Source: Membranipora membranacea
Lineage: Eukaryota; Bryozoa; Gymnolaemata; Cheilostomatida; Membraniporidae
Reading direction: 5' to 3'
DNA length: 64,000 bases
Assembly (NCBI GenBank): GCA_914767715.1
Contig: OU612072.1
Location: forward strand, 16,120,001-16,184,000
The position numbers and the translations under genes were made by a program. Positions 13,713 to 61,796 of this stretch are shown here, piece after piece. A model generated the notes under the pieces. The model was not told the DNA's origin. It saw only the letters and a list, made by a program, of their open reading frames with translations, and did not search any database. Numbering within the stretch: the first letter of the stretch is position 1; the number at the start of each line of letters is the position of its first letter.

Positions 13713-14037
13713 TAGTTATCAAGATAATACAGTTATCTCAGAAGAGACTGTTTTACCCCAATCAGCCGGCTATAAAAACACCTAATCACTTAGATTTGTC
13801 AGTTCAATACACAGGTACCAATTATGAGGAGCTTCTCACTCTTCTCTTGGTAAAATATCTTGCAACAGATTGAACCGAACAGATTTATTTCACTCGGAAA
13901 CAGAAATTGCATACATCAGAGCATTAAATTTTACATGTATATAAAGTATATATGTATGTAACCCAACATATTGTTCGCTCTCATAGCGCCAGTAACTTCC
14001 AGTTCCAGGAGAAGAGTCCAACGTCCTCTCTCGCAGT

Positions 14038-14199: not shown

Positions 14200-14224
14200 C
14201 TGTGAGCACAGTCGTTTTACAGTA

Positions 14225-18835: not shown

Positions 18836-21800
18836 TCACTGAGGCAAGCTGTTTAAGGGAGAATCAGGCTGACTCATATCTAGCCCATACTCATCTTCAT
18901 CATCTACATCGACTTGTACATCAACCTCATTCTCATTTACAGCGTCAGCATTGGCAACTTCCATATGAACATCATCACCAACCGGACAGCTGAAATAAAA
19001 TCTCATGTGTTTAAATGTGTTGATAGACAGAAAAAAATTGACAGAAGGATATCCCATAAGAATAAGTTCATGTTCATTAATGTCTGAAGCCATTTCTACA
19101 AATTGAGCCATTTCTCCCTACCTCTGAGCTGAGGATTCAGCAGGTTGATTTGCCCTTAGTTTTAGGATTACTGCTCCAGCGATCAGAATACACAATACAA
19201 CAGCTGCAGCAGTAGTTAAGACGATAACTGTAGGCTTAGTAGTCGAAGGTAGCATCTTCCCTGTTGTTTCATTCAATGTCTCTAGTGCTGTGGAGAAAAG
19301 AGTACATAAAGACATGGATTTAGCAATAATTAATTAGTCCAAGAACAGATGCTTTTTTTGTACACATTGACCGCTCAAGAGTATATAATAAGGACATGAT
19401 ATAGACAATGAATGATGTTGTAGTCTATACATGATATGTCAAATCAATCACAAACCAATTTTGTATAGGGCCTACTTATTGCTTAGCTGACAAATTACCA
19501 AATCTTACCTGATGGAGCAGTTACAGTGGTCAGAGAAGCTTTAGTTGATTGGTTAGTTGGAACAGTGGTATCAGTTGAAGTTATTGGATGAGTGGTATCA
19601 GTAACACTAGCTTGAGTTGTTGTAATGGTTTGAGAGGTTGGATAAAATGCTTTAGGTTTTTCCGGAGGTGTTTGAACAACATTTCCTGTATTAAACAAAA
19701 AGAGTTTAAAGTGAGAGAATGAATATGAGCAGAGTGTGTGTGAACATAACAAGTGATGTAATGCAAAGCCCCAAAAATGTCTATAATGGGAGAGTGAAAT
19801 GGGCAAAATGGCTTCATTTATAATGTGTTCATGAAACATTATTGAATATTTCAACATACTGTGAGTTCTAGCAAGAAGTTCGAGTTTAGAGTCTCTAACT
19901 CCTTGGTTATAGTAATGGGTTGTGTTAGTGAGACTGTCAATAGCAGCCAATGTGTTAGCTCTGATTGATCAGGGAGAAAGAGCCAATGTACGGCCATTAT
20001 GACTTACTTTCAGGAAAGTACTTTATGCCTTGGCATTGCGTACAGTATATCAAATATCGAATATTGTACATGATGAAAATTTTATTTGGATTCTGTCCCT
20101 TTGACTTTTCTATTACTAAGCAGGTAGTTCACGGATCCTGCTATCAGGATAATATGTGATGACAGAGCCCTTTAACAGTGAAAGTAAGAAGCCAGCCCTT
20201 TCACTCCACCCAGCCACTTAGAACAAACACATTGGTTGATCAAAGTTCTGACCTCAAATTTTATATAACAACACCAGAGTGTGCCTTTTTTTATGGTTAT
20301 ATGAAAACTCAATGCCTTCACAGCCTTTTCACAGCTTAAACATACTTGAGTTTTCATTTTGTTCGAGTGCTTGTATATTGTTTAAACACAATTTGAAATC
20401 GATAATTTCTATATCATTAGATAATCTTGGCTGTGGGCATTTTTTCATAAAACCTGATTACTTGCAATATGGAAAGAAAAAGGATTGTCCAGAAGCTAAT
20501 CAGCATTGTTCAAGTGAAATGATTACTCTCTTCGTATTTGAAGAACAATGAAAACTTCTAATATCTTAACTATCCCAAAATGATAGTTAAGAAATGAGAT
20601 TTTTCCATGAGGATTGTTATTACATGATATTAGCTGATATCAGCACAAATGACAACAACAATTGTGATTAATTCTTGGTCACAAGGGTTACCACATGCCA
20701 ACACTTAACACCCTACCTGTACTTACCCTGCACTGATCTTATTCGCTCCCACTCCCCGATATAGAGAGTGTTGTTGAGGATGAGTAGTCCACGCGGACGA
20801 TATAAGCTGCAGGAGGTTAAGTTACCGTCCAAATGTCCAATGATACCTGAGCAAATTTCGAAGCTTCTGTTTGTTTTAAGATCAAGGACTGTGAGTCTGG
20901 GTTTCCGGTCAGTATTCAGAAATACAAGAATGAGGGTGTGGTCATCAAGAATGTCAACTTGATAATAGAATGTTTCAGATTCTATTGTTGCCATGGTGTT
21001 ACCATCAAAGCTGTAATAACCAAGTAGGTTATAACCGGCTACATAAACGTTCCCTTTGCTTTGCTCTTGAACCATATCAAAAATCATGTATGTTCCTATG
21101 TCCCCCTGCCAAATGGTTGATATATTTTTTGTACCAATATTCAGGGATAGCAGAGCGGAATGTTCACCAATAATGAGACGATTGGGATTCTTTACATCGA
21201 TTGAGATTGAAACGGGATAAAAATCATCACGGTAGGCCGTCTCTCCAGGACCATCTGGTGTACAATTTCCTACAAAGTCTGATGTCCTATTTGCTAAACG
21301 ATCAACAGATCTCAGACAACGTTTCCCATAATCTGCAATGACGAGCCAATTAGGAGACAGCTGAGCGAAGCTTGTAACTTCACCATACCATACGTCTCCT
21401 CCTACCACAGCTGTTATACTCCCATCTGTGGTCTTTATCGATCTATGGTCTGAGTAGAGAATATTACCAACTACGTATACGTCAGCCTCCATATGGTTGA
21501 CAGAGCGTGGAACAAATGCGTAAGTTGTCATCTCACTTTCAGGCGTTAATCTACAAAAGGAAACGAAATGTCATCAATCATATTCTGACGTAAGTTTAAT
21601 TTTTCGAGTCATGACAACTCCTGAGGAGATTTGTCTACAAGGTTAATGACACTTGTAACATTTATATATCTCTTGCAGGTTTGTGAGATTCACTTTCCCT
21701 CTAATAAACTGATGGAAAGTTTCAACTCCAAAAGTCAAATTCCTTATCGAAGTAAATCGAAGTAATCAGTGATTGTTTAACATAAAGCCAATCAAGTAAA

Positions 21801-33209: not shown

Positions 33210-33316
33210 GAAACTTATTTATTTATTTATTTATTTATTGAGGTTTTCTAAAAGTTCATAATTAAAGCAAATTAAAAATAACTTGTGGACCTCACACACA
33301 TTAACATAGATATTGA
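33210..33316 (-). repeat. Dispersed repeat with (ATTT)n tail
   Basis: 'ttgaggttttctaaaagtt', 'ataattaaagcaaattaaaa' and 'gacctcacacacattaacat' also occur at about 45,450-45,535 and, inverted, at about 61,140-61,235. Each copy has an ATTT/AAAT microsatellite at the same end. On the minus strand this looks like the 3' end and tail of a LINE or SINE. It is non-coding, and its parent element is not in the window. Confidence 0.7.
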
Positions 33317-34019
33317 CTTACTGTGTTCAGGTCATTATTTGGAGCCATTGCTATTTATGTATGCGCCATGCATTGTATATGTAAAACAAAATTTACTGGG
33401 TGCTGTCTGACAATGGTTTTCATAAAAAGAGTTTCCTTCACTTGCAGGAGTGACTTGATTCTACATACCTGACCTACGGAAGTCCTGCTGGTTCGCTACA
33501 AGATCTTTCACCCTGTTCATAAGGATAGCTCCTGACTCTGCGTGAAAGGTCGATACATTGACCGGGCAAGTTCTTGGTTTGAAGCTCCAGGGGTTGAGCC
33601 TCTTTATCATTGTTGCAGCCTTTCTCAGATCATCAGTAGTACTTTTCTTTTTTTTTGTGATTTTTCTTTCTCCTGCTATCCACAAGCTGTTCCTTCAGCT
33701 GCCCCATAGCTGCAGCACATCCGGTAATAATGCAACCTTGAAAATTGTTTGGTTATTTTGTTTCATAATTATTCAGTCAACATTTTAGAGCAGCTTGGGA
33801 GACAGTTGGGTAAAAAACAGTAACGTCCGTTATTTATGCTCACCCATATCTAGTGATCACGATGGGTTTTCAAGTATACAGCCACAAACAGCTGTGGTTT
33901 TCAGGCTAATATCAGGTTCAAGCTACAACTTTTCCCAAACACATTGTTGAGAGACAAAATAATAAATTTCAGTCATCACCACAAAAACTGATCTACTTCT
34001 CACTACCATACCAGTCAAG
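33317..34019. other. Non-coding stretch, nothing recognised
   Basis: Between the helicase remnant and the hAT gene. It should hold the left end of the hAT element, but I could not find matching terminal repeats. Confidence 0.4.
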
Positions 34020-36215
34020 ATGAGTCAGCCTCAACCTCAAAAGAGGAAAAAAAGTGGAGTGTGGGATTATTTCTCTGTGGTAAATGTAACTGAAGATGCT
34101 TCAAAGAAACAGAATGTAGGCAAAGTAAAGTGTGGCACTTGCCACTCTGAATTGAGTTACTTACAGGGATCAACTACATCAATGAAGTTCCACCTGAAAA
34201 GGATTCATGACATTACAATCATATCAACAACTCATAAAGCCAGTTCCAGCTCGTCTGATGGTGCAAGAAAGCAGCCTAAGCTCAGTGAATTTATGGCAAC
34301 TAAAGCCATGATGAGTAGTGAATCTCCCAAAGCCAAACGCCTAACAAACAGCATTGTAAAGATGATATGCCTTGACCTGCAGCCCCTCTCTATGGTTGAG
34401 GACAGCGGATTCAGATCCCTGATGAGCGAGGCTGAACCCCGATTTGTCATACCCGCTCGAAAAAGTTTGCGGAACAACATAATTCATACATTGTATGCAT
34501 CTGCTACAGCCAAGGTGAAGGACAATATCGCAGAGCACAAACAGAAATATGGTACAAATGCCTTGTATAGCATCACAACAGATGGTTGGACGAGTAACAA
34601 TACTGCAAGCTATATAGCATACACCCTCCATATCATTGAGAATTTTAAGCTGGTGAGTTACGTTATCAGCCTAGCCTCGCTGAGTTCAAAGCACACGGCG
34701 CAAAACGTGCGCGCCCACTTATTTGAGACTTTGCAAAGCTGGGATATCCTTCCTGGCGCTGATGTTGATGCTGCTGGGGATCAGAGTGGTGGAGAGGACA
34801 ATAATATTCTAAACGGTGAGTTTGCTTGGCAATCATAGCAGAACAATGTAGACCTATAATACATCATTATTATTATTATTGATATTGGGTTTTTCGATTA
34901 TCACCTAAATCAGATTACGGTCCGCCTTCCATAGGTCTATTTGGATAAACATAGCAATGACGTGTTGAGTTTGTTGTATGTCATAAAATAAAATTGAGTT
35001 TGGTAGGCATATCATGCTGTGCTAATGCAGTCAATTTCAGTCATCAATCAGGCCCTTCACTTCAATGAAGTTAACAGATTTCCTGATTTTTGTTTTTTAG
35101 CTGGTGATGATGATGATGCAGCTGTTGGCACAGCGTTGATATCTGATGGTGAGATACCCATGCCTGAAGTCATGTCGACTTATCATAAGATGGTTGTAGT
35201 GACATCCGACAATGCTGCCAATGTCACAAAGGCTATCACGGATAGCTCTATGGCCATTGTGAGATGCTTCGCACACACTGTAAACCTCAGCGTGCAGAAG
35301 TTTGTAAAGGTTATAGATGAACAACTACGACACGTACACGCAATCGTGCGCTACTTTCATAACAGCCCAGGAGCTACAGCCGCCCTCAAGGTGAATTAAA
35401 TTAAGATTTGTCCAATGGGATTTACCAAAACTGCTCTCACAAACGCCAATGTAAATGTTTAGGTATGTTGCTCCCTGGATAGCATAACTTTGCAGAAGTA
35501 AATTGTCATCTTTACACGGGGAAGCCATATGAGTGTAACTAGGAAGTAAATTTGGGTTATCCGCCAACTGATAACTACTTTTGTCGTAGTCATAGGCTTC
35601 AACTCGTCCCCTTAGGCCATCAACATCTTCTGTTCTCTCTTCACCAATCTTCAGGCAAACAAAGATAACCTGGACAGCCTCAAGCTCGTCATCGATGTAA
35701 GCACAAGGTGGAATAGCTCATATGACATCAATGACAATGACAATGACGGCGATGACAGTCCTCAAAGTATTCAAAGACGTCACCACCATGATGTCAAGCC
35801 AGACGACAGCCACCGCCTCATTGGTGAAGCCCCTACTATATCAACTCATGCAGATTAGCAAGCCAATGGAAGGTGATGAGCGGGCTATTCATCAAGCAAA
35901 CGTCACACTTTATCACGATTTGGAGTAATGATGGAGGGGCTGCAGTAGAAGTCCAGCGTTACATTGCCGAAAAACCATGTGCAATGGCTGAAGATCCTTT
36001 CAATTGGTAGAAGGAGAGGACCCATGACTATTCCCTGCTCAATCTGTATGCATTGCCACATGTGGCTATACAGGGCACATCAGTCGCATCTGAACGTGTA
36101 TTTAGTAGTGCCGGTGATGTATCACCAAGAAAAGAAATCGTCTAGAGCCTGATATTGTAAATATGATCATGTTTCTGAACCGTAATGGCTCGGTGCTGCC
36201 AGAGTTCTCTGTATA
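34020..36215 (+). pseudogene. hAT-family transposase with BED finger, decayed
   Basis: Exon 1 (34,020-34,815) starts with ATG and encodes a BED zinc finger (VWDYFSVV, then KCGTCHSELSYLQG and MKFHLKRIH). The RNase H-like core follows, with the first catalytic Asp in SITTDGWTSNN. Exon 2 (35,101-35,390) carries VVTSDNAANV (second Asp) and RCFAHTVNLSVQKF. Exon 3 (from 35,655) begins ANKDNLDSLKLVIDVSTRWN. These three exons join in frame. After that the gene is broken: sequence is lost or out of frame around 35,730-35,940, a TAG replaces the second W of the hAT 'NWW' motif at about 36,009, and one base is missing inside the C-terminal dimerisation region after SERVFSSAGDV. Terminal repeats and an 8-bp target duplication were not found. 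It is a fossil DNA transposon of the hAT superfamily (ZBED-like). Confidence 0.82.
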
Positions 36216-44893: not shown

Positions 44894-45542
44894 CTACCCG
44901 CAAATGTGGTTTCTATCATTATTATGATAAATTGATGGTGATAAGTGAAAGGCAGTGATTTTCAGTTTCTGTGAGAGGTCAAAATTTTTCATTTATCCGC
45001 TTCAGTTTTTATCCACTTTTTCAAAAACAAGAGAAGATTTGTACTTTCAAAAATGGGGTCGTTACCCTTTATCAGATTTCTCAAATTCGAGGTAAAGCAT
45101 CTCAAACTGCAACTGCATTTACATCCTCATCATGATAATTTACTTACAGTTTTCACAATTTAAGTTTCACTTTCATCATAGTACATCATTGTTAAACGGT
45201 GGCAAATAGGCAACTCACTAAGCTCAACATTAAAAGGGCCCATGTTCATAGCACATTATGTATTTCCTACAAAGCTCATTGACTTGCAGCTTTCTGTTGA
45301 TCAAGTTATATCACTTTTATATAGATTTGATTTTCCATTCGTAAAAGAGAACATTAAGTATTTGACATTTTTACACATATATTGGAAATTATCATCACAA
45401 AAATGTGTTTATTTGACCAATGGATCAATTTGCCTAAATTTATTTATTTAATTTATTTATTGAGGTTTTCTAAAAGTTTATAATTAAAGCAAATTAAAAA
45501 TAACTTGTTGACCTCACACACATTAACATAGATACAAAAAAT

Positions 45543-47140
45543 GACTTGGATAATAAGATATAAGCGGTAGGGTGTTACATACTATATAGTGTGTAGGATA
45601 ATGAAATCATGGCATCATAAATTGCGTGAATAAGATGAAAAAAGAAAAGAAGAAACAGAGAGTGGCAAACAATAATACAAGTTAACAACATTAGGTAGGA
45701 TTAAATGATAATGATTCATGAGGCTTGGTTGATTTAGTTACAAATGTATAAAAAATATTTAAAACAGCTGATTTGCCTAGGTTTGATCTAAATAGCAACC
45801 TCACTTTCTTATGTCATTTGCAGATAAGTTTAACGATCAGCAAAAATGGATGTGAGTTTACCACGTGATGAGATAATGTGGTATTCTATCAAACTTGGAA
45901 AAATGCAGCCTCCACATTTCAAAACAAATTGATTGACAAAGTAAGTCACGCTCATCAATCAATCAAAGGGCTATTCATAACATGGCTTTGCTATTACTTA
46001 CAACCACTTCAAAACAGAAGTACATCAACTGATTTGAATACCTATAGATACTTCTGCAATCCAACATGTCTTTTCCTAAAATATTCTCCAACCAAAATAG
46101 AAAGAAACTGTTTTTATCATACTAATGTATTACTGGATCCAAGATGTGTTTGATAAACATCAAACTATGTGTAGTGGCGCTGCATAATGTAATTTATAAC
46201 AAGAATAATATTTTGTGCTCCTTAATTTAGCACGCTATGGTTTTGACTCGCAGTACCTCTCCTCATTACGCCAATAGTTACAACTAAAATGCGGTATAAA
46301 TAATCTTTCAAATATCTGGCACTTTTTGCATCTGATTTTGAGGGTGCAAACACCTCATGATACCTGTTGCTGAGCGAAGGTGACTTAATTATTTTCTAAA
46401 ACAAGGATCAAACACAAATTCAGCATCTCCTCAGAGCCCTTCTTTTCCGTTGATGCATTCATGATAGCTCATTTCAATAAGGTCAATGAGGTGAGTTTGA
46501 TAAAATTTGCATTGTGTTTTATTTAACATGACTCACAAAGAGAAAACTTTCAGTGAAACCATGCAGAGTCAGTTTGTGTTTTTTTAAAATGGTTATAATA
46601 TAATAAAAACAGGAGGGTGTTTATCATCAAAGGAGTCGATATGTGGTCCATATCAAGAAAGAATGCGAAATTCCCACAATTTGCCACAGCAGCAAGAGGC
46701 CTTCTTGGTCTGTTTGATGTATCTAAAACAAAGAGTGAGTGTGAAATTCATTATCTAACTACAGAGTATCCTAGTTAATTTGGTAATTTTTGTGATACTC
46801 AAGCTGTTAACAAGCTGACGAGCAGGTCTTATTCTTTAATAGAGACAGCCGTATACAAATAAACAGTTATATAAGGAGAGGTATACACCCGAGGGTATGT
46901 AACTCACTCTTCTAACTCTAAAAGGAGCAGAAGATGTTAATGGCGTGTGGGATGTCCAGGGAGTACTAAATCTGCATTTCCAAGGAGAAGGAAATCTGCA
47001 AGGAGTAGCAGATATCCAAGGGGTACTCGGTTTCGAAGCACTGCTAAAAACATCCAAAGAATGTCGTTGAATAAACTGACCTTGAAAGTTTATAATTAGA
47101 GTAAATTGAATATTGGTTGGCCTGAAAATCATAAACATAC
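45543..47140. repeat. Left arm, outer duplication unit (A)
   Basis: Shares blocks with unit B at about 47,800-50,004 in the same orientation. 'aggattaaatgataatgatt' and 'gcctaggttt' near 45,700-45,785 match 47,938-48,030. The spliced Cys-cluster exon near 46,630-46,740 matches 49,127-49,260. The TPW repeats near 46,900-47,050 match 49,449-50,004. The mirror unit lies at about 59,800-61,140. Confidence 0.75.
46880..47060 (-). pseudogene. Outer TPW-repeat copy, left arm (degraded)
   Basis: The minus strand reads SKPSTPWISATPCRFPSPW, KCRFSTPWTSHTPLTSSAPF and then an unrelated end. It has one repeat-like block rather than three or four. No signal peptide precedes it: the open frame begins in sequence homologous to flanking non-coding DNA. 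The Cys in the last block is replaced by Phe. It mirrors 59,975-60,120 in the right arm. I treat it as a shortened relic of the intact gene at 56,005-56,469. Confidence 0.6.
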
Positions 47141-48537
47141 ATCAGGAAAACATCTTAAATAAAAACGTTTGTGTGTAGGGTGCTACATACTCAGTGTTCT
47201 GAGTTAGTGGGAACCGGTGGGAACTGAGTTCTCGCACAAAAATAAAGATGCAGAACCTTTAGGACTGCTCTAAGGAAATTAGCGTGTATCTGGGTATCTG
47301 TGGGGTGTTATTATAGTGCCAAAGTGCTCGTCATGTATTGCATTGTATGTCAAGTTGAGTTCTAAGATCTTATAGTTGGAATAGAGATGGAAATAAGGAA
47401 AAAGAGCCAGCTGTTGTTAATGCTTCCATTATTCTCTATTCCCCAACTCAACTGACAGTTAAAATGATGTGGCAAAAATAAATTAACGATGGATCATTTA
47501 TTAGTTAGAAATGCTAGGTGCGTGGTCTTTGATTGAAATGGAATGGTTACCATTGTAATATCTCATCATGACCAGTGTAATTAAAATGTCAACGTGGTTA
47601 CATTTAGGAAACCAATAATGTCATTCTACGGATATAACAGGACACAGCTCCCACTGAGTTCTGTTCAAAAAGAGTGTAAAGTTGTCTCTTTTGACCAAAT
47701 ATCAATCATACTATTACAGATCCATATTTCTGCATAATTTAATCTAGAAATTGCAAAAGATTCTCAAAACTATTCTCAACCCAGAGTGTAGAGTACCGCA
47801 AAGAAAATAGTCCACTTAGACCACTGTACATACTACATAGTGAGTAAGATAAATGAAGCACGTTGCTACCATAAATTACATGACAAAAAAGGAAGGAGGA
47901 AGTAGAAAATGACGAACGCAAATTTCGCAGAATTAGGTAGGATTGAATGATAATAATTCATAAGGCTGGTTCGATTCACTGACAAAATAATGTATGAAAT
48001 ATATTTGAAAAGGCTGAGCTGCCTAGGTTTGTGCTGAATGATGATTTAAATATTGAGCTGTACTGGGATTGGCGTTTCCTGGCTATTGTTTGGGTTCACT
48101 ATCCATTGCAACCAGGTGTAGTGTAGTGTTCTGAACATAATTACAGACAAGTTGGACAGCTCATCTCAGGTTGGCTTTGATTGATTTGGTCTGTGATGCA
48201 GTGAGATTACCATCTCACACAGGGCCGACTGCCAGGCTTTGAACAGGTAGAAAATTTGCCACAACATGTGCACACTCACTGTGATCTGAGTATTAATACT
48301 TATAATCTCAAATTTAGAGAAGAACTGATGGCATCAGTGGTGCTCATCTTAGATCTAAACCGGATTGGTCTTTTGGAGATCAAGTTATAGGGTCAGAACA
48401 CCAATATTTCATGCAGTTAATTTATTCCATTTCTTGAGCTTATCAATCAGTTTATGCTTATCATTTGCCAGTTATTTTACAATTTTTTCATAAAAGAATT
48501 TATGAATTTGAGCTTGACATTGTCAATATTTCTACAG

Positions 48538-48639
48538 CAACTCAACTTCAAAAGAAGCCAATCAGCAGAAGCAGAAGCTTGTAACAAGGTCTTGAAGTTG
48601 CCCTGTCAGTATTTGCCCGAAGGAACAGAAATTCCGTGG
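48538..48639 (+). CDS. 34-codon phase-0 exon conserved in both arms (left copy)
   Basis: Bounded by TTTCTACAG and GTAACA, the exon is 102 nt with both edges in phase 0. It encodes QLNFKRSQSAEAEACNKVLK followed by LPCQYLPEGTEIPW. The right-arm mirror (57,388-57,287, minus) has the same length and sites with seven changed codons. It runs opposite to the TPW gene in its arm, so it would belong to a different gene. I found no partner exons and do not recognise the sequence. Confidence 0.35.
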
Positions 48640-49448
48640 GTAACATTAGGGTTTCTATTGTGATTTTATATTTTTGGTGTACTTAGCTGCGAAGGTGACA
48701 CCTAAGCTTTTCCATCTAAAGATGTGAGTCAATCTCCTTCAAGCTTTGATGGCATGAATATAGCGCTGTGTGTAAATGTTTTTACTATAATTTGCCGGTT
48801 CCAACGTCATCTTGCACACGTTCTCTACTGATACTACTTTATCCACAGAGTTTTGAAAGTAGTATTGAACGAAAAAAAGTTTTCCATTTGACCAAACCCA
48901 GTAAACTTCAAAACATAGGGCAGTAAATCAACTAGAAAATCCTTGAGTTTGCTAATAAAATGGTTTATTTGGATAAATTCAGCTGGAATTTTATATAATT
49001 TGCATTGTGTTTTATTAACATGACTCACAAAGTGAAAACTTACAGTGAGGCCATGCACAGTCAGTTTGTGTTTTAAGGATAGAAAACAATGGTTATGTAA
49101 TAAAAACAGGAGGATGTTCATTTACAAAGGAGTCGATATGTGGTCCGGGTCAAGAAAGAATGTGAAGTTCCATGTTGTCGGTTGGAGATCATGGTTGTCA
49201 CAGCAGCAAGAGGCCTTTATGGTCTGTTTGATGTATCTAAAACAAAGAGTGAGTGTGAAATTCAATGTCTGATTACAGAGTCACCTAGTTAAATTGGAAA
49301 TTGTGCAAATTTAAGCTGCTTTCAAGGTGAAAAGAAAGCCTTAATTTTTGATAAAGTCAGACAAACACAAATAAACTTATATAAATACATATGTAACTCA
49401 CTCTTCTATTGAAGTTGCATCACCACCTGCTGCTGAACATCCGATGAT

Positions 49449-50004
49449 CTAGTGATGTGATTTTTTCTCAGATTTCCGAGGAGTACTAACTCTGCAAGGA
49501 TTATTAGATGCCCAAGGAGTACTAAATGTGCAAGGAGCATGAGATGGTTTAAGAGTTGGAGATGTCCAGGGAGTTCTAGATCTGCAAGGATTATTAGATG
49601 CCCAAGGAGTACTAAATGTGCACGGAGCATGAGATGGTTTAAGAGTTGGAGATGTCCAGGGAGTTCTAGATCTGCAAGGATGATTAGATGCCCAAGGAGT
49701 ACTAAATGTGCAAGGAGCATGAGATGGTTTAAGAGTTGGAGATGTCCAGGGAGTTCTAGATCTGCAAGGATGATTAGATGCCCAAGGAGTACTAAATGTG
49801 CAAGGAGCATGAGATGGTTTAAGAGTGTGAGATGTCCAGGGAGTACTAAATTTGCATATCCAAGGAGTTCTAAATCTGCAAGAAGAAACAGGTCTCCAAG
49901 GTGTACTCGGTCTTGGAGAATTTTTCAGATACCGGGGAGGCCTTGCAATAGCTACAGAGATTCGCCACCAAACAAAACACAGATAATATTGCCATGGCCT
50001 TCAT
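49449..50004 (-). pseudogene. TPW-repeat secreted protein, left-arm copy (frameshifted)
   Basis: Mirror of the intact gene at 56,005-56,469. The start and signal peptide are present (MKAMAILSVFCLVA from 50,004), but an extra base near 49,970 moves the frame and leads to an early stop near 49,870. Beyond it the repeat frame is still open and has more repeats than the right copy: about four 90-bp units (49,561, 49,651, 49,741 and a variant at 49,830) with TSPTLKPSHAPC and CRSRTPW blocks and SNHPC in place of SNNPC. The upstream TATA-like box (about 50,460-50,470) and leader donor (about 50,385) are retained, so the gene may still be transcribed. Confidence 0.75.
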
Positions 50005-52312
50005 GACGAGTGCGGTACCAGCTCTGAAAAGAGAAAAAAATTCATTTAAATTCAAATCTTAATCTATCATCACTTGGTCAATTTGAAAGATACCACTTAA
50101 GTTTATTGCCCAAATAAGATGCTCAAATCAGTGTGAGCTGAATATTAGCACAGTTACAACCTTCATTAACATTGTTGTTAAATTCATTTACATTTAATAG
50201 CAAATTATCAGTAAAATTTAAATAACAACTCAATTATATCTTCTTTGATAGTTTCATTGTGAAATGGTGTCTGGAAATCTGTTGTGGAGGTAGTTTTATT
50301 AAATGATAGTTTTTTGAATATTCAGCGGCTCAAAAAAGTAAACAAATATACATTTTTGAAACTTAGTATGCATTCAGACTATACTCACTCCTTTATCAGA
50401 AATGTTGATGAACTCGATATGCTGCAAGCAGGATAATGTGACATCTGTAAGCAAACCATCCCTTTATATATGTTTATATCCAGATGTAACTCAAAGCACA
50501 GCTGTGCTCACAGTTCCACCTCCGATAACCAGAGTAATTAATGACTTGAACTTCCACATTTCCCATCACTTTAGATTTTAGTGGAGGCTGCAGTTTTCAA
50601 GTTTTGATTGATCATCAAACTATCTCTGAAATACTACCAAACAATCTATTCATGCGGTCAGCTCACATCCATTTTTGCTGAGTAATGGTTATGGACAAAT
50701 GATTTGGCAGGCAGTAGGAGGTTGCTGTAAAGTCAAATTGATTGATCTGTCTGAAAAACTAAATTGCATGTTCATCATTCTAAAAAAATTTATTTCATGG
50801 AGTGTTATTGATATGAATGGTATGACACTTCAAAATAGTAAGATTACCGCTGCAACAAGATGCTGTGTATCATCATTCACTATAATATAAACTGCAAAAA
50901 GACCAAGTAAACCTCATACCAAGTAATGCATATATGAACTGTGACCTTTATAATTGAATAAAATATGGATAACACTCGTATTATCTCATACATCCCCAAA
51001 AATATCCTGTTCGGTCTCACAGCAAAATCCACATGGATTCCTAAATGTTGAGATTGAGTTTGTTTGGTGTTGGAGGGGTGCTAGAGGGAGGATTTAATAT
51101 GAAGTTTTCTAACAATGTGGATCAGAAAAAACGCAATTACATACATAATTAAAATTCTTCACCTTATATTTTGGGACTTTTTGTATCCTTCTTTGCAATA
51201 AACAAAAATAGGGTCAACAACCTTTTAAATTTTTCTTGATTATTTTTCTTATTAAGGAAGTCAATCAATTTAGACTGTCAAAACATACTTCCTGAACATG
51301 ATTTAATTACTCAAAATTCCCTACTTTGATTTGGAATGGATGCATGGTTTTAGCGATAAGAAATTTCAAACAGTAGCAAATGAATATAAATATCAATTTA
51401 GGTTTTCATTACCCTTAAATCAAGCCAATAGAAATTCGAAAGTATTTCAGCCTCCCTGTTTAGCCTTCCATTCCCTTTAGACTTGACCACTTGAACTTGT
51501 AAGTGGAGAACATCCCATGCTTCGATTTCACAACAACTTTAAGAGTTATCAAATCATTGAAATAGCATTGGCACATTTTTTCACCAACTGTTGTGTCCCT
51601 TCATTCTATTTGCGCAACCCTATCCCGTTGAAGCAGCATGAGGGATTAACGGAGGCACCAATGCCTGTGAGACTTGAGGCACGGTTTCAGGAACCAAAAT
51701 CATCCATTCAAATAGAGAGTAGGCAACTTCATTTGAAATGGGACAATGATTGATTGGAATTTTGCTTGTCAGCAGAAGTTGGTAAACCAATATTGAACAG
51801 AAATTGGATGCTTTCTGAATTGGATGTATATAAAGTGAGTGCTGGAATGCCATTATCATTATCATTATCATTATAATAAGGGTATCAGAGGAATGTTTGG
51901 CCGTGTCTCCATGGGAACTCTAGGTTTCAGTCTTGTTACAACATAGAAGAGGGTAATAACTTGCAGAAAATAAAGTGCATCATTCACTTACAGCAACTTT
52001 CTAATGCTAGTGCTAATACAACAATGGCTATTGCTCACGGCAACTGGCCTATTAATCAATATCAATATAAATGTGATTTATAAACAAAAATTTCCCAGCC
52101 CAAGCAGATGTTAACGGAAGATATGTCTGGGTGATTTATGTGATTGAGCTGAACTTTGAAAGTACTGCCTCTATTAATTAAAGATTTCGAAGAAAAAAGG
52201 CGACAAAATTAGTTCAATTCCTAGTCACTAACAATCATCCTAATGTCTGTTTTGTTTCTAAAATGAATCCTAGAGTCGGGAAAAAGTGACTGTCAATAGT
52301 AAGACAAGTATT

Positions 52313-53607
52313 GAGCATAACATCCATTTTCATATGTTTGTACTATGGAGTAACTTACAGAGCAGCCATGCTTACTGTTAAAGAATAGCTCATGACTTGG
52401 ACTTCCAGTTTTTCCATCAATCTTGATTCGAGTTTGCTACAGTATTTAATAAAATCACCAAATACTCTGATGATGTGAAATTTGCTGAGTAATACCTATT
52501 TAGAATTGGCATAGCAATGGGAAGTTGCTGTCAAGTCAAATTGATTGATCTGTCTCATTAACCTTTTGACACCTCATCGTCTTCTAATCGATTTGAAAAG
52601 TGTCAAATTCTGCTCAAATTAAAAAGCTTGGAGTCAATGAACTCATATGGGAGTATGCAATGTACTTTTAACACTGGCCCTACTAATGCTTATCTTAGTA
52701 GGGTGCTCTTTATCAAACAATGAAACAATGAATGACAAACAAACACCATAATGTTCCTTTTGGTGATATGCTATGCGAGACTAGGCAGGGGTTGCAAAAA
52801 GAGAATTTGTCTTTGATAGTATATGTAAATTATGATATATCAGAATATGTCACCTCAATATTTTAGGATTGCTAGAAATAATCTTCTTTGATCCTGTTAA
52901 ATCTGTTATAGGAATTCAATGTCGATCTTTACAAGTATTTTGAGTGCATGAGAATAAAAGGAGGGTTATTGAGGGTGCTATATTCGCATTCGGCAATTGT
53001 TTGAGGAAAATTTGAAGGCCTCTTTGCAATGCGTGGTGCACAAGGTGCATTATTCATTGAGGTTTTGTCTAAGTTGAAGTTTTACAAGATTTTATTTGAT
53101 GTTACTGTTAATCTGTGAAACTAAAATGGTAAAATGCGTTTAATTGAATATGGTGCTAGCATCGGCGCCTCATAAAAATCATGCTGTCAATGAACTACCT
53201 GTGGATTAAAGCAAACTATGGGGAGACAAATATTTAAACACAAGTTTACCGTTATAGGAACCTCGAATTAAGCCCCACAATACGTAAGCTTAGTAAAAAA
53301 ACTTAGCAACAAAATGAGCATGAAAGTAAGAGGAATTGGTGTACACACACCAAGGCTCACTGGGCAACAATGAAGTTAAAAGCTCCCATAACGCTTTAAA
53401 CCAGTGCAGCTATTTGGGCACGAAACAAAATTGCCTGACCCGAACAAGCCAAGTAATTATGACCAATCGACCTGCTCTTAGTCAAAAAGATGATGCACAT
53501 TTATACAACACCAAAAAATCATCCCTTTGTATTCGCTCATATCTTGGAGTCGGTCATCGCCCAGATATGGTTGCTATTCCATAACCGATAACAACATTAT
53601 TTAATGA
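52313..53607. other. Central spacer of the palindrome
   Basis: About 1.3 kb with no reverse-complement partner. The part at about 52,360-52,560 is a diverged direct copy of 50,490-50,760 (shared 'ttgctgagtaat' and 'gtcaaattgattgatctgtc'), the region upstream of the left TPW promoter. No gene seen. Confidence 0.6.
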
Positions 53608-54039
53608 GTATACTTGTCTTACTATTGACAGTCACTTTTTCCCCGACTCTTGGATTTATTTTAGAAAAAACGGACATAAGGGTGATTGTTAGTGACTAGG
53701 AATTGAACTAATTTTGCCGCCTTTTTTCTTCGAAATCTTTAATTAATAGAAGCAGTACTTTCAAAGTTCAGCTCAATCACATAAATCACCCAGGCATATC
53801 TTCCGTTAACATCTGTTTGAGCTGGGAAAATATTGTTTGTAAATGACATTCATAGTGATATTGATTAATAGGTCAGTTACCGTGAGCAATAGCCATTGTT
53901 GTATTAGCACTAGGAAGTTGCTGTAAGTGATTGATGCACTTTATTTTCTGCAAGTTATTACGCTCTTCTATGTTGTAACAAGACTGAAACCTAGAGTTCC
54001 CCTGGAGACACGTCCAAACTTTCCTCTGATCTCCTTTTT

Positions 54040-54088
54040 ATAATGATAATGATAATGATAATGATAATGATAATGATAATGATAATGG
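54040..54088. repeat. Hexanucleotide microsatellite (ATAATG)n
   Basis: About eight uninterrupted ATAATG units. The mirror position in the left arm (51,853-51,880) has only about four, showing that the arms have diverged in repeat number. Confidence 0.9.
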
Positions 54089-55540
54089 CATTCCAGCACT
54101 CACTTTATATACATCCAATTCAGAAAGCATCCAATTTCTGTTCAATATTGGTTTACCAACTACTGCTGACAAGCAAAATTTCCATCAATCATTGGCCCAT
54201 TTCAAATGAAGTTGCCTACTCTCTATTTGAATGGATGATTTTGGTTCCTGAAACCGTGCCTCAAGTGTCACAGGCATTGGTGCTTCCGTTAATCCCTCAT
54301 GCTGCTTCAAAGGGATAGGGTTGCCCAAATAGACTGAAGGGACACAAAAGTTGCGTGAAAAAATGTGCCAAAGCTATTTCAATGATTTGATAACTCTTAA
54401 AGTTGTTGTGAAATCGAAGCTTGGGATGTTCTTTACTTACAAGTTCAAGTGGTCAAGTTTAAAGGGAATGGAAGGCTAAACAGAGAGGCTGAAATACTTT
54501 CGAATTTCTATTGGCTTGATTTAAGGGTAATGAAAACCTAAATTGATAATTATATTCATTTGTTACTGTTTGAAATTCTCTTATCGCTAAAACCAAGCAT
54601 CCATTCCAAATCCAAGTAGGAATTTTTGAGTAATTGATCATGCTTAGGAAGTATGTTTTGACAGTTTAAATTGATTGACTTCTTTATCACGAAAAGTAAT
54701 CAACAGAAATTTAAAAGGTTGTTGACCCTATTTTTGAAAGTACATGTCACCCAGCTGTTTATTGCAAGAAGAATTTTAATTAGGTATGTAATTGTGTTTT
54801 TTCTGATCCATATTCTTAGAAAACTTCATATTAAATCCTACCTCTAGCACCCCTCCAACACCAAACAAACTCAATCTCAACATTTATGAATCCATGTGGA
54901 TTTTGCTGTGAGAGCGAACAGGATATTTTTGGGGAGGTATGAGATAATATGAGTGTTATCCATATTTTAATCAAATATAAAGGTCACAGTTCATATATGC
55001 ATTACTTGGTAAGAGGTTTATTTTGTCTTTTTCCAGATTTTATTATAGTGAATGATGATACACAGTATCTCATTGCAGCGGTAATCTTATTAATTTGAAG
55101 TGTCATACCATTCATATCGATAACACTACATGACACTTTTTCAATTTTTTTAGAATGATGAACATTCAAATTAGTTTATCAGACAGATCAATCAATTTGA
55201 CTTTACAGCAACCTCCTACTGCCTGCCATGTCATTTGTCCATAAGCATTACTCAGCAAAAATGGATGTGAGCTGACCGCATGAATAGATTGTTTGGTAGT
55301 CATTCAAGGTGCAACCTCCACATTTGAAAGTGAATACAAATCATAAGTGACGACATGAGTTGAAAAAAATAATTTGTTTTATTAAATAGTTTGATGATCA
55401 ATCAACATTTGAACACTGCAGCGTCCACTAAAATCTAAAGTGATGGGAAATGTGGAAGTTTAAGTCATTAATTACTTTTGTTATCGGAGGTGGAACTGAG
55501 AGCACAGCTGTGCTTTTAGTTACATCTGGATATAAACATA

Positions 55541-55620
55541 TATAAAGGGATGGTTTGCTTACAGATGTCACATTATCCTGCTTGCAGCATATCGAGTTCA
55601 TCAACATTTCTGATAAAGGA
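55541..55620 (+). promoter_or_regulatory. TATA box and untranslated first exon of TPW gene
   Basis: TATAAAGGG at 55,541 follows a second TATA-like stretch at 55,531. About 80 bp later lies a GTGAGT donor at 55,621, matching an acceptor (TTTTCAG) at 55,979-55,985 just upstream of the coding exon. The arrangement suggests transcription starting near 55,570, a short leader exon and a 365-bp intron. The same box and donor are kept in the mirror position (about 50,385-50,470). Confidence 0.55.
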
Positions 55621-56004
55621 GTGAGTATAGTCTGAATGTATACTAAGTTTCAAAAATGTATATTCGTTTACTTTTTTGAGCCGCTGAATATTCAAAAAAC
55701 TATCATTTAATAAAACTACCTCCACAACAGATTTCCAGACACCATTTCAAAATGAAACTATCAAAGAAGATATAATTGAGTTGTTATTTAAATTATACTG
55801 ATAATTTGCTATTCAATGTAAATGAATTTAACAACAATGTTAATGAAGGTTATAACTGTGCTAATATTCAGCTCACACTGATTTGAGCATCTTATTTGGG
55901 CTATAAACTTAAGTGGTATCTTTCAAATTGACCAAGTGATGATAGATTAAGATTTAGATGCAAATGAACTTTTTTCTCTTTTCAGAGCTGGTGCCGCACT
56001 CGTC

Positions 56005-56469
56005 ATGAAGGCCATGGCAATATCATCTGTGTTTTGTTTGGTGGCGATCTCTGTATCTATTGCAAGTCCTCCCCGGTATCCGAAAAATGCTCCAAGACCG
56101 AGTACACCTTGGAGACCTGTTTCTTCTTGCAGATTTAGAACTCCTTGGATATGCAAATTTAGTACTCCCTGGTCATCTCCAACTCTTAAACCATCTCATG
56201 CTCCTTGCAGATTTAGTACTCCTTGGGCATCTAATAATCCTTGCAGATTTAGAACTCCCTGGACATCTCCAACTCTTAAACCATCTCATGCTCCTTGCAC
56301 ATTTAGTACTCCTTGGGCATCTAATAATCCTTGCAGATCTAGAACTCCCTGGACATCTCCAACTCTTAAACCATCTCATGCTCCTTGCACATTTAGTACT
56401 CCTTGGGCATCTAATAATCCTTGCAGAGTTAGTACTCCTCGGAAATCTGAGAAAAAATCACATCACTAG
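56005..56469 (+). CDS. Intact TPW-repeat secreted protein, 154 aa
   Basis: The coding exon begins after an acceptor at 55,985. The chosen ATG at 56,005 gives a clean signal peptide (MKAMAISSVFCLVAISVSIA) and is kept in the mirror copy. The mature part is repetitive. A lead-in (RPSTPW, SSCRFRTPW, CKFSTPW) precedes about three 30-residue units of the form TSPTLKPSHAPC, TFSTPWASNNPC, RSRTPW. Each unit has two Cys 12 residues apart, three Pro-Trp or Pro-Cys turns and several Arg/Lys/His. The C-terminus is basic (KSEKKSHH). There are no dibasic or Gly-amide sites between units, so a classic neuropeptide precursor is unlikely. A secreted disulfide-linked structural, matrix or defence protein is possible. 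I know no family with this unit. Its frame is the only one of the three with a signal peptide. Confidence 0.65.
   Translation: MKAMAISSVFCLVAISVSIASPPRYPKNAPRPSTPWRPVSSCRFRTPWICKFSTPWSSPTLKPSHAPCRFSTPWASNNPCRFRTPWTSPTLKPSHAPCTFSTPWASNNPCRSRTPWTSPTLKPSHAPCTFSTPWASNNPCRVSTPRKSEKKSHH
56175..56432 (+). repeat. 90-bp coding tandem repeat
   Basis: About three units of 90 bp, each starting near 'acatctccaactcttaaacc'. The corresponding left-arm array has about four units. Copy number therefore changes in steps of 30 codons without frame loss. Confidence 0.85.
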
Positions 56470-56681
56470 ATCATCGGATGTTCAGCAGCAGGTGGTGATG
56501 CAACTTCAATAGAAGAGTGAGTTACATATGTATTCATATAAGTTTATTTGTGTTTGTCTGACTTTATCAAAAATTAAGGCTTTCTTTTCACCTTGTAAGC
56601 AGCTTGAAAATTGCACAATTTCCAATTTAACTAGGTGACTCTGTAATAAGATATTGAATTTCACACTCACTCTTTGTTTTA

Positions 56682-56793
56682 GATACATCAAACAGACCAG
56701 AAAGGCCTCTTGCTGCTGTGGCAACCATGATCTCCAACCGACAACATGGAACTTCACATTCTTTCTTGACCGGGACCACATATCGACTCCTTT
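56682..56793 (+). CDS. Cys-cluster exon downstream of TPW gene
   Basis: After an acceptor (TTTGTTTTAG) the sequence encodes YIKQTRKASCCCGNHDLQ, then PTTWNFTFFLD and DHISTPL with a stop. A GTGAGT donor at 56,518 would join it in the same frame as the TPW repeats, except that TAG at 56,467 intervenes; sixteen open codons separate that TAG from the donor. The exon exists four times, once per duplication unit (near 46,650, 49,180, 56,700 and 60,310). In the outer copies the ending extends past STPL. It is either part of the 3' untranslated region or the relic of a longer protein. Confidence 0.35.
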
Positions 56794-57286
56794 GTAAATG
56801 AACATCCTCCTGTTTTTATTATATAACCCTTGTTTTCTATCCTTAAAACACAAACTGACTGTGCATGGCCTCACCGTAAGTTTTCACTTTGTGAGTCATG
56901 TTAAATATAACACAATGCAAATTATATAAACGTCCAGCTGAATTTATCCAAATAATTATACCATTTTATTAGCAAACTCAATGATTTTCGAGTTGATTTC
57001 CTGCCCTATATTTTGAAGTTTACTGGGTTTCGTACAATGGAACTTTTTTTTTCGTTCAATACTACTTTCAAAACTCTGTGGATAAAGTAGTATCAGTAAG
57101 AGAACATGTGCAAGATGACATTGGAACCGGGAAATCATAGTAAAAACATTTACACACAGCGCTATATTCATGCCATCAAAGCTTGAAGGAGATTGACTCA
57201 CATCTTGAGATGATAAAAGCTTAGGTGTCACCTTCACAGCTAAGTACACCAAAAATATAAAATCACAATAGAAACCCTGATGTTAC

Positions 57287-57388
57287 CTGCGGATATTCTG
57301 TTCCTTCGGACAAATACTGACAGGGCAACTTCAAGACCTCGTTACAAGCTTTTGCTTCTGCTGATTGGCTTCTTTTGAAGATGTGTTG
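57287..57388 (-). CDS. 34-codon phase-0 exon conserved in both arms (right copy)
   Basis: Mirror of 48,538-48,639. It encodes QHIFKRSQSAEAKACNEVLK then LPCQYLSEGTEYPQ between an intact CTACAG acceptor and a GTAACA donor. Every base difference I see from the left copy changes an amino acid (L/H, N/I, E/K, K/E, P/S, I/Y, W/Q). Function unknown, and it may be non-coding. Confidence 0.35.
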
Positions 57389-58269
57389 CTGTAGAAATAT
57401 TGACAATGTCAAGCTCAAATTCATAAATTCTGTTAAGAAAAAAAATGTCAAATAACTGGCAAATGATATGCATAAACAGATTGACAAGCTGAAGAAATAG
57501 AATCAATTAACTGCATGAAAGAGTGGTGTTCTCACCATATTACTTGATCTCCAAAAGTCAAATCCGGTTAAGATCTAAGATGAGCACCACTGATGCCATC
57601 AGTTCTACTCTCAATTTGAGATTATAAGTATTCATACTCAGATCACAATGAGTGTCCAAATGTCGTGGCAAATTTTGTACATGTTCAAAGCCTGCCAGTC
57701 AGCCCTGCGTGAGATGGCAATCTCACTGCATCACAGACCAAATCAATCAAAGCCAACCTGAGATGAGCTGTCCATGTTGTCTGTATTATCAGCATGTTCA
57801 GAACACAGCACTACACCTGGTTGCAATGGATAGTGAACCCAAACAATAACCAGGAAACGCCAGTCCCAGCACAAACCTAGGCAGATCAGCCTTTTCAAAT
57901 AAATTTCATACATTATTTTGTCAGTGAATCGAACCAGCCTTATGAATTATTATCATTCAATCCTACCAAATTCTGCAAAATTTGCGTTCGTCATTTTCTG
58001 CTTCCTCCTTCCTTTTTCGTCATTTAATTTATGGTAGCAACATGCTTCATTTATCCTACCCACTATATAGTTTGTACAGTGGTCTGAAAGGACTTTTTTC
58101 TTGGTGGACACTCTACACTCTGGGTTGAGAATAGTTTTGAGAATCTTTTGAAATTTCTAGATCAAATTATGCAGAAGTAATGATCTGTAATAGTATGATC
58201 GATATATGGTCAAAAGAGACAATTCACACTCTTTTTGAACAGAATTCAGTGGGAGCTGCGTCCTGTAAT

Positions 58270-59763
58270 GTCCGTAAAATGATATTATTGGTTTCCTAAA
58301 TGTAACCACGTTGACATTTTAATTACACTGGGCGTGATGAGATATTACTATGGTAACCATTCCATTTCAATCAAAGACCAGGCACCTAGCATTTCTAACT
58401 AATAGATGATTCATCGTTAATGTATTTTTGCCATATCATTTTAACTGTTAGTTGAGTTCGTTGAATAGAGAAGAATAGAAGCATTAACAACAGCTCGCTC
58501 TTTTCCCATATTTCCATATCACCATCTTACGACCAAACTCACAAGCACTCTTTCACGCTGACTTAGAACTCAACTTGACATACAATGCAATACGTGACGA
58601 GCACTTTGGCACTATAATAACACCCCACAGATATCCAGAAACACGCTAATCTCCTTAGAGCAAATGGTGGAGGACTGCGACGATCTCCGCTGCTCTCAGC
58701 CAAGCGATAATCAAGGACGATCATCTAAGGTGCCGGATGGATTATGTGCCTTCATATTAAATAAATAATATCTACACCGAAGAAGTAAGTTAAACTTGAC
58801 TCTAACAGCCAGACAGCACATCATGACAATATTATCTTCACACAATTAATCTTGCGACACTACTGCTATTACCTAAACTGTCTGGATAGTGACTTTTTAA
58901 ATAATTATTACGCTGCCACGGAATCCTCAACCTGTAAGCTACCGCTCACTACTTCAGATCCGGAGGGATGGTATAATGATATGCTGGCCATCTGAAAGAA
59001 ACAGCATGATTGAAACTGGTTGCCCAAGCGCAAGGGTGAATAATATTGCTGCGGTCCAAGTTGTGGACAAAAACCAGTCAGTGACGCCACCCGTTGTACT
59101 ATGCTTGTCAACTTGCGGATCGGATAACGGATATTGATGAGTACGACTTCATGGCCACGAGCGCTATCCATACTGAGCTGAGGAATAGAGTATACTCGGA
59201 GATTTATATTGTGTTGTTATTTTTTCGTCTTAATGTTGATTTGATGGACTTTTGTTATTTAAACTATCGTACCTTTACATATAAAGAATATGAATATTTT
59301 GCGCATTGATAATTTTAAGATTTGGATGAGCGAGGACTCTCATGTTTTAAAAGCTGGGTGTATGTTATATCCGTAAAATGACATTATTGGTTTCCTAAAT
59401 GTAACCACGTTGACATTTTACTTACACTGGTCGTAGTGAGATATTACTATGGTAACCATTCCATTTCAATCAAAGACCAGGCACCTAGCATTTCTAACTA
59501 ATAGATGATTAATCGTTAATGTATTTTAGCCACATCATTTTAACTGTCAGTTGAGTTCGTTGAATAGAGAAGAATAGAAGCATTAACAACAGCTCGGTCT
59601 TTCCCCTTGTTTCCATCTCACCATCTTACGATCCAACTCACAAGCACTCTTTCACGCTAGCTATAAGATCTTAAAACTCAACTTGACATACAATGCAATA
59701 CATGACGAGCACTTTGGCACTATAATAACACCCCACAGATATCCAGATACACGCTAATTTCAT
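58270..59763. repeat. Right-arm-only duplication flanking a 0.7-kb insert
   Basis: A block of about 385 bp ('tccgtaaaatga' to 'acacgctaat') occurs at 58,270-58,653 and again at about 59,370-59,755, with few differences. Between them lies about 715 bp (58,654-59,369) with no counterpart in the left arm, which has the block once (about 47,290-47,650). The insert has short open frames on both strands (58,908-59,171 minus, 59,094-59,309 plus) that I do not recognise. It accounts for most of the extra length of the right arm. Confidence 0.75.
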
Positions 59764-59974
59764 TATAGCAGTCCTAAAGGTTCCCCATCTATATTTTTGT
59801 GCGAGAACTCAGTTCCCACGGGTTCCCACTGACTCAGGACACTGGGTATGTAGCACCCTACACACAAACATATTTATTTAAGACGTTTTCCTGATGAATG
59901 TTTATGATTTTCAGGCCAACGAATATTCAATTTACTCTAATTATAAACTTGCAAGGTCAGTTTATACAACATCT

Positions 59975-60120
59975 TTGGACGTTTTTAACAGTGCTTCGAA
60001 ACCGAGTACCCCTTGGATATCTGCTACTCCTTGCAGATTTCCTACTCCTTGGAAATGCAGATTTAGTACTCCCTGGACATCTCACACCCCAAAAACATCT
60101 CATGCTCCTTGTAGAGTTAC
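59975..60120 (+). pseudogene. Outer TPW-repeat copy, right arm (degraded)
   Basis: Reads SKPSTPWISATPCRFPTPW, KCRFSTPWTSHTPKTSHAPC and then RVTYPRVYTSPY to a stop near 60,190. It is the mirror of 46,880-47,060 and keeps the Cys that the left copy lost. No signal peptide is joined to it. The open frame starting at 59,894 runs in from sequence that is non-coding elsewhere in the palindrome. Probably non-functional. Confidence 0.55.
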
Positions 60121-61796
60121 ATATCCTCGGGTGTATACCTCTCCTTATATAACTGTTTATTTGTATACGGCTGTCTCTATTATAGAATAAGACCTGATCG
60201 TCAGCTTGTGAACAGCTTGAGTATCACAAAAATTACCAAATTAACTAGGATACTCTGTAGTTAGATAATGAATTTCACACTCACTCTTTGTTTTAGATAC
60301 ATCAAACAGACCAAGAAGGCCTCTTGCTGCTGTGGCAACCAAGATCTACAACCAACAACTTGGAATTTCGCATTCTTTCTTGATATGGACCACATATCGA
60401 CTCCTTTGATGATAAACACCCTCCTGCTTTTATTATATTATAACCACTTTATAGAAACCCAAACTGACTGTGCATGGCTTCACTGAAAGTTTTCTCTTTG
60501 TGAGTCATGTTAAATAAAACACAATGCAAATTTTATCAAACTCACCTCAGTGACCTTATTAAAATGCATTAGTATGATTAAAACAGTTTCTTTCTATTTT
60601 GGTTGGAGAATATTCTAAGAAAGGACATGTTGGATTGCAGAAGTATCTATAGGTATTCAAATCAGTTGATGTACTTCTGTTTTGAAGTGGTTGTAAGTAA
60701 TAGCAAAGCCATGCTATGAATAGCCCTTTGATTGATTGATGAACGTGACTTACTTTGTCAATCAATTGGTTTTGAAATGTCGAGGCTGCATTTTTCCAAA
60801 TTTGATAGAATACCACATTATCTCATCACGTGGTAAACTCACATCCATTTTTGCTGATCTGCAAATGACATAAGAAAGTGAGGTTGCTATTTAGATCAAA
60901 CCTAGGCAAATCAGCCGTTTTAAATATTTTTTATTCATTTGCAACTAAATCAACCAAGCCTCATGAATCATCATCATTTAATCCTACCTAATGTTGTTAA
61001 CTTGTATTATTGTTTGCCACTCTCTGTTTCTTCTTTTCTTTTTTCATCTTATTCACGCAATTTATGATACCATGATTTCATTATCCTACACACTATATAG
61101 TATGTAACACCTTACCACTTATATCTTTTTATTCAAGTCTTTTTTTGTATCTATGTTTATGTGTGTGAGGTCAAGTTATTTTTAGTTTGCTTTAATTATA
61201 GACTTCTAGAAAACCTCAATAAATATAATAATTAAATAAATTTAGGCAAATTAATCCATCGGTCGAATAAACTCATTTTGTGATCATAATTTCCAATATA
61301 TGTGTAAAAATGTCAAATACTTAATGTTCTCTTTTACGAAAGGAAAATCAAATCTATATAAAAGTGATATAACTTGATCAACAGAAAACTGCAAGTCAAT
61401 GAGCTTTGTAGGAAATACATAATGTGCTATGAACATGGGCCCTTTTAATGTTGAGCTTAGTGAGTTGCTTATTTGCCACCGTTTAACAATGATGTGCTAT
61501 GATGAAAGTGAAAATTAAATTGTGAAAACTGCAAGTAAATTATCATGATGAGGATGTTAATACATATAGTTGCACAGTTGCAGTTTGAGATGCTTTACCT
61601 CGAATTTGAGAAATCTGATAAAGGTTAACGACCCCATTTTTGAAAGTACAAATCACCTCTTTTTTTTGAAAAGGTGGATAAAAATTGAAGCTGATAAATG
61701 AAAAAGTTTTACCTCTCAAAGAAACTTAAAATCATTGCCTTTCACTTATCACCATCAATTTATCACAATAGTGATAGAAACTACATTTGTGGGTAG

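Follow-up and report, generated by a model that had tools for sequence, protein, structure and literature searches.

Gene-bearing palindromes are already known in animals, and the one considered here, in a 64-kb stretch of DNA from the bryozoan Membranipora membranacea (contig OU612072.1 of assembly GCA_914767715.1; hereafter the window, 37% GC with zero Ns), is a further case, whose gene is an orphan and whose history is unusually easy to read. The initial annotation of this locus regarded such structures as unusual outside sex chromosomes and amplified gene families, but published cases show that they are not so rare: in the excerpted text of two reports, 11 palindromic gene blocks are described in the springtail Folsomia candida and 17 in the rotifer Adineta vaga (PMC5490193, PMC7953838), while a survey of parthenogenetic animals, which cautions about scaffolding errors, puts the number at 19 for A. 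vaga and at 16 for F. candida (its table lists 15); of the other genomes, eight have between one and four each and 13 have none (PMC7953838). The Folsomia authors, in the portion of their article drawn on here, discussed gene conversion, observed a wide range of synonymous divergence (Ks) among their blocks, and concluded that concerted evolution was not the explanation (PMC5490193). As in those blocks, the Membranipora locus is a gene-bearing inverted duplication within one scaffold, for which conversion between arms has to be considered; unlike them, at least as far as these extracts describe them, its lowest divergence is confined to the gene, and where the original studies counted blocks of five genes or more, it has one complete-looking gene per 7-8 kb arm. 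The ampliconic palindromes of mammalian X and Y chromosomes likewise have inverted gene-bearing arms and arm-to-arm conversion, although their arms, in the partial accounts used here, are more than 99% identical, compared with 94.6% at this locus, where conversion likely covers only about 1.5 kb. A third parallel lies in sea urchins, whose SpTransformer (Sp185/333) products are secreted. The genes themselves are small, lie in clusters marked by duplications and inversions, and have repeats within their coding sequence (PMC8634487, PMC5491942); the parallel is drawn without sequence comparison, and the SpTransformer genes, as described in the sections cited, have two exons and GA repeats flanking each gene (PMC8634487), whereas three exons are predicted here and the window's 23 tandem-repeat rows include no GA array. 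We consider it somewhat probable that, in Membranipora, a block containing a gene for a predicted repeat protein (TPW), a remnant of that gene and probably a long terminal repeat (LTR) element was duplicated in inverted orientation, and that one transcription unit was then likely homogenised by gene conversion.

The palindrome is real in the assembly, and self-BLAST with an arm alignment defines its parts:

44894-52311, forward strand: left arm
53610-61796, reverse strand: right arm, the reverse complement of the left
52312-53609, no strand: spacer of 1,298 bp separating the arms

One end-to-end alignment has 6,516 identical columns among 6,886 (94.6%), the 370 mismatches comprising 174 transitions and 196 transversions, and the longest self-BLAST pieces reach E = 0; given this length and identity, a chance origin of the match is excluded. 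The mirror arms and the outer limits previously proposed, exactly 44894 and 61796, are confirmed by self-BLAST and by sharp junctions, beyond which the flanks are mutually unrelated; both arms share the outer end CTACCC(G/A)CAAATG. Two inverted arms around a spacer on one contig constitute a palindrome, or inverted segmental duplication. In the largest indels, the right arm has 1,132 bp and 76 bp that the left lacks, and the left has 342 bp and one 90-bp repeat unit more than the right. The arms also contain an ATAATG hexanucleotide microsatellite (54040-54087, with eight copies in the right arm and fewer in the left) and a dispersed repeat of about 97 bp (45438-45534 and 61148-61241), of which 33217-33312 is the single copy outside the arms and a further copy at 47085-47191 is only 70-72% alike.

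Each arm holds one complete-looking predicted TPW gene of three predicted exons, B on the left (reverse strand) and B' on the right (forward strand), both pointing outward. Their features, taken from the sequence and from motif positions, with the tandem repeats from Tandem Repeats Finder, are:

55539-55548, forward: TATA box of B' (TATATAAAGG)
ending at 55620, forward: predicted exon 1 of B', followed by donor GTGAGT
55986-56516, forward: predicted exon 2 of B', acceptor TTTTCAG, donor GTGAGT
from 56683, forward: predicted exon 3 of B', acceptor TTTTAG
56005-56469, forward: open reading frame (ORF) of B', 154 aa, ATG at 56005, stop at 56467-56469
56152-56438, forward: 90-bp tandem repeats in B', 3.2 copies
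56904-56909, forward: poly(A) hexamer AATATA of B'
48986-50470, reverse: gene B from its TATA box, with exon 3 from 49236
50470-50461, reverse: TATA box of B, identical to that of B' (TATATAAAGG)
49870-50004, reverse: reading frame of B from its ATG, 44 codons, frameshifted
49480-49856: 90-bp tandem repeats in the left copy B, 4.2 copies
49016-49011, reverse: poly(A) signal AATAAA of B

TATA box, splice sites and start codon are the same in both arms, the poly(A) hexamer excepted, so that each arm bears a predicted gene, that of B being frameshifted. The earlier description of an intact copy in one arm and a one-base frameshift in its mirror holds: 56005-56469 is open, and one additional base near 49961, in the signal-peptide region of B, ends the left frame after 44 codons. 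The open frame is thus found with the variant hexamer AATATA in the right arm, and the broken frame with AATAAA in the left. B' would be transcribed outward from its TATA box, spliced and its product secreted; B is predicted to give only a 44-residue frame-shifted peptide, and only B' would then be functional, its partner being a dead donor or recipient. An array of four units, A-B-B'-A', had been proposed, and related copies do lie in each arm; the array nevertheless consists of two complete-looking genes, two 3' remnants (A and A') and promoter relics.

Divergence between the arms drops over B and B'. A scan statistic, a two-state hidden Markov model (HMM) and feature counts define one tract:

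55489-56974 of the right arm (R), matching 50520-48950 of the left (L): low-divergence tract

Here 39 of 1,480 columns differ (Kimura two-parameter distance, K2P, 0.027) vs 331 of 5,406 elsewhere, a fall from 6.1% to 2.6%. The tract takes in the whole predicted B' transcription unit, its ends lying about 50 bp ahead of the TATA box and about 65 bp beyond the poly(A) hexamer. Among 1,400-column windows the lowest (R55500-56900) has 35 mismatches vs 75 expected, a value reached in none of 2,000 permutations, and the HMM yields a likelihood ratio of 31.2, resolving two low segments (459 and 982 columns) split at R55948-55986, just before the exon 2 acceptor, where 5 of 39 columns differ. With exon borders shifted by up to three bases from the gene model above, exons (18/813 differences) and introns (17/535) are similarly diverged (p = 0.30), and introns fall below the near flanks (170/2,303; p = 0.0002). 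The 90-bp repeats are not the cause, because the tract remains low without them (34/1,149). Neither is protein constraint an explanation, as the coding differences between B and B' lack any bias to silent changes (9 of 10 are nonsynonymous; 24% silent expected, p = 0.47). As introns are as alike as exons, conversion is favoured, and we infer that it, rather than constraint, lies behind the drop; the B transcription unit has likely been homogenised between the arms. Locally raised identity in sliding windows, which the initial annotation had named as a sign of gene conversion at the TPW genes, was therefore found over B and B', non-coding sites included, but not clearly over the A and A' remnants, which differ at 24 of 522 columns vs the background of 6.1%.

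A transposable element within the arms may place this event in time:

58264-59770, forward: small LTR retroelement of the right arm, with LTRs at 58264-58662 and 59363-59770
47266-47639, reverse: left-arm solo LTR, occupying the same site and flanked by GTCC

The right-arm element has direct LTRs with TG..CA ends and GTCC on each side, as an LTR retroelement should, and GTCC also surrounds the left-arm solo LTR; the 1,132-bp indel between the arms reflects this element. Since element and solo LTR occupy one site with the same GTCC, the insertion is likely older than the inverted duplication. Listed frames in the 700-bp interior are at most 102 aa, the longest (58908-59216) has no Pfam match, and no coding was recognised; as to a primer-binding site, TGG sits 2 bp past the 5' LTR, and the element shows no clear polypurine tract. 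We take the element to resemble the TRIM-type small non-autonomous LTR retroelements, like which it is short, with TG..CA LTRs, a 4-bp flanking repeat, no recognised coding and a solo-LTR counterpart, and unlike which it has LTRs of about 400 bp and a 700-bp interior. K2P is 0.068 between the right-arm LTRs (26 of 399 sites differ), 0.064 between the arms outside the tract (331/5,406) and 0.085-0.087 between the solo LTR and each right LTR. The shared-site insertion thus serves as an internal clock, by which homogenisation of the gene may be dated against the duplication (0.027 vs 0.064 and 0.068).

Older events appear to be recorded around the palindrome's genes, in truncated copies and fragments of promoter:

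46493-47040, reverse: A, a headless TPW remnant that retains the 3' coding part, intron 2 and an exon 3 carrying a deletion
59987-60543, forward: A', a headless TPW remnant
52314-52562, reverse: decayed copy of the B promoter in the spacer, 61%, pointing left
53516-53607, reverse: decayed copy of the B promoter in the spacer, 67%, pointing left
45707-45964, forward: beyond A, an inverted fragment of the region upstream of the B promoter, 67-72%
60730-60857: mirror fragments of the B promoter-upstream region in the right arm
49220-49248, 56671-56699, 46706-46734 and 60285-60313: copies of a 29-bp block

Similarity between A and B is limited to about 550 bp, comprising the coding exon's 3' part, intron 2 and exon 3 (73-75% identity), and a further stretch of about 220 bp downstream (70-72%), so the proposal that each arm is itself a direct duplication does not hold in the form given. 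Nothing before A or A' aligned to the B promoter or signal-peptide stretch, a separate upstream signal exon not having been searched for systematically. A sensitive search placed the inverted promoter-region pieces beyond A, in both arms, at 67-78%; in its reversed-subject control seven of eight query pieces were matchless and one gave a single match (E = 6e-4), and the B promoter query matched nothing elsewhere in the window at E <= 0.01. A candidate TPW relic in the spacer (53054-52962), sited downstream of the promoter relic at 53516-53607, was rejected, its match falling short of significance (E 4.1 and 9.6). The open frame over A' (59894-60187) is identical at 96 of 98 residues to P0041, a 98-aa protein of a 650-bp contig from another record, so that A'-type DNA has been assembled elsewhere too. 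A' and B' match without gaps over 26 residues, and nine of ten changed codons alter the residue. The 29-bp block lies at the intron 2/exon 3 junction and shows no difference among the four copies, A and B being elsewhere 73-75% alike. On the strand opposite this block there is a splice-donor-like GTGAGT together with an open frame. The 16 differences between B' and A' in exon 3 split 9/3/4 by position, too few to decide on a coding reading, sense or antisense. The A remnants and promoter relics lead us to regard the cluster as probably an old birth-and-death array in which the palindrome arose late.

Several observations weigh against parts of this account, above all against homogenisation of the gene by conversion. 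Divergence is over-dispersed along the arms (variance/mean 2.45, equalled in none of 5,000 shuffles), and the highest 1,400-column window, with 114 mismatches, was reached in 0 of 2,000 permutations; because windows of high and low divergence are equally extreme, the uniform null is too easy, and the tract borders were moreover chosen from the data. In a second low tract (R60622-61106, 11/485) no gene was recognised, just a fragment from upstream of the promoter. The left-copy frameshift, which conversion had been expected to be able to repair, is still present. The distances of the solo LTR are somewhat above those expected from the proposed order of events, on small samples, and the absence of purifying selection weakens the case for TPW as a maintained protein. 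Segments outside the gene that are recognisable in paralogues also change slowly (60/1,344 vs 240/3,688, p = 0.007), and the gene lies below these only at p = 0.010. The slowness of those segments speaks for the alternative that survives best, one we regard as serious though less likely than not, namely that the gene region evolves slowly in both arms under regulatory, splicing or RNA constraint, with no overwriting. Identity across all 95 columns of TATA box and exon 1, and the 29-bp block preserved in four of four copies, would fit such constraint; introns as conserved as exons, the lack of an excess of silent changes, and the lesser conservation of the A/A' remnant (24/522), recognisable as it is against B, would not.

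The predicted product of B' has a hydrophobic signal-like N-terminus (VFCLVAISVSIA), followed by cationic repeats rich in Pro, Ser, Thr, Trp and Cys, such as TPWASNNPCRSRTPWTSPTLKPSHAPCTFS, with a TPW motif and a 30-aa unit; this agrees with the secreted repeat protein first proposed, as predicted. Its last 134 residues include 20 Lys/Arg, one Glu, 27 Pro, eight Trp and eight Cys, and this part would act extracellularly as a repeat protein, basic and Cys-containing, with a structural or surface-binding role. The view that the amplified gene has no recognised family is upheld by the searches, none of which matched a known family. A Pfam scan of 18 ORFs of the window, including the B', A and A' frames, found nothing above cut-off for these three; the Waglerin family (Pfam Toxin_33) was discarded at 13.9 bits over 11 residues vs a curated cut-off of 25. 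A single-sequence search with B' against 5.8 billion proteins gave no match at E <= 1 (eight candidates), and a four-row TPW alignment gave one, P0041 (E = 1.8e-29; 5,187 candidates). A PDB match, 21nr_A (E = 0.0005), was put down to chance, consisting of four 4.8-bit stretches of a repetitive chain. None of 117 pattern matches in prokaryote genome contigs, and none of five in viral contigs, was confirmed. AlphaFold2, applied to the sequence A1, returned a mean pLDDT of 35.4. The TPW gene is apparently a member of a secreted repeat family missing from the searched libraries.

The 90-bp unit is divisible by three, so that its tandem copies could keep a frame open by themselves, in which case TPW would not be a maintained protein gene; we consider this unlikely. 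The repeat is open in other frames too, the coding changes look neutral (the 9 of 10 nonsynonymous noted above), one copy carries a frameshift, and the empty single-sequence search and the mean pLDDT of 35 would be expected of such a frame. Against this, the ATG lies right behind a good acceptor and is followed by the hydrophobic signal-like stretch, the strength of which is matched in one of 12 ORFs of at least 100 aa, presumably B' itself; A' and B' retain their gapless 26-residue match, and the TATA box and splice signals are in register.

An assembly artefact, in which two haplotypes of one locus were joined tail to tail, is very improbable. Haplotypes of very polymorphic invertebrates can differ by about 6%, and the divergence between the arms is within that range; a joined-haplotype or fold-back artefact is nevertheless argued against by diverged arms with differing insertions, and by homology that ends sharply at both outer ends between unrelated flanks. 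The window is free of Ns, and the inverted arms enclose a 1.3-kb spacer with decayed family copies of its own. Slightly less probable again is a hairpin-RNA locus producing small interfering RNAs: arms longer than 7 kb in inverted orientation could form a duplex in a read-through transcript, yet both identified TATA boxes face away from the spacer, so that outward transcripts would not hold both arms. Scans of the window for tRNA and Rfam families found nothing, the empty Rfam result saying little about such loci, which need not be in Rfam. Least probable of all is a giant fold-back transposon with the arms as terminal inverted repeats: the common outer sequence that begins both arms would fit it, but no target-site duplication accompanies that sequence (the longest word common to the flanks is 5 bp and out of register) and no transposase family was found among five scanned frames of the region.

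Elsewhere in the window two frames are transposase-like:

6747-9161: long Mutator-like (MULE) transposase frame
33966-35399: BED-finger/hAT-like frame

The MULE frame is 99% identical to P0001, from another source. A second, divergent inverted pair (20682-21363 and 28097-28756) has 66.5% DNA identity; its ORFs (20713-21570, reverse; 28149-28739, forward) have no Pfam family above cut-off, and their propeller-like look is an impression only. The ORF at 5882-6253 includes 4.5 copies of a 60-bp repeat that encode basic units of about 20 aa, such as SPVRRKRALNTSADAKSPSL; it too lacks a Pfam match above cut-off. A frame at 13928-14314 weakly resembles trypsin (17.1 bits vs a Pfam cut-off of 20.6, E = 0.005). 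Taken with the TATA and intron signals at the palindrome, which mark the DNA as eukaryotic, this frame suggests a probable animal origin.

In the history that we favour, tandem TPW copies and promoter relics would have arisen first, the small LTR retroelement would then have inserted, and the whole block would have been duplicated in inverted orientation; finally, the left-arm element would have collapsed to a solo LTR and the gene been overwritten between the arms. A more speculative extension, to which we attach little probability, is that the palindrome acts as a copy-editing device serving a single fast-changing secreted protein, in which the outward-facing B copies exchange their transcription unit only, while the remaining arm sequence drifts apart. 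If so, a lineage-restricted Trp/Cys/Pro repeat protein could have its changes, the number of 90-bp repeats among them, tried in one arm, and the changes so tested would be spread to the other arm or erased by it. The locus thereby lends itself to a small test of whether conversion between palindrome arms in animals hits genes selectively or blindly, given its internal clock.

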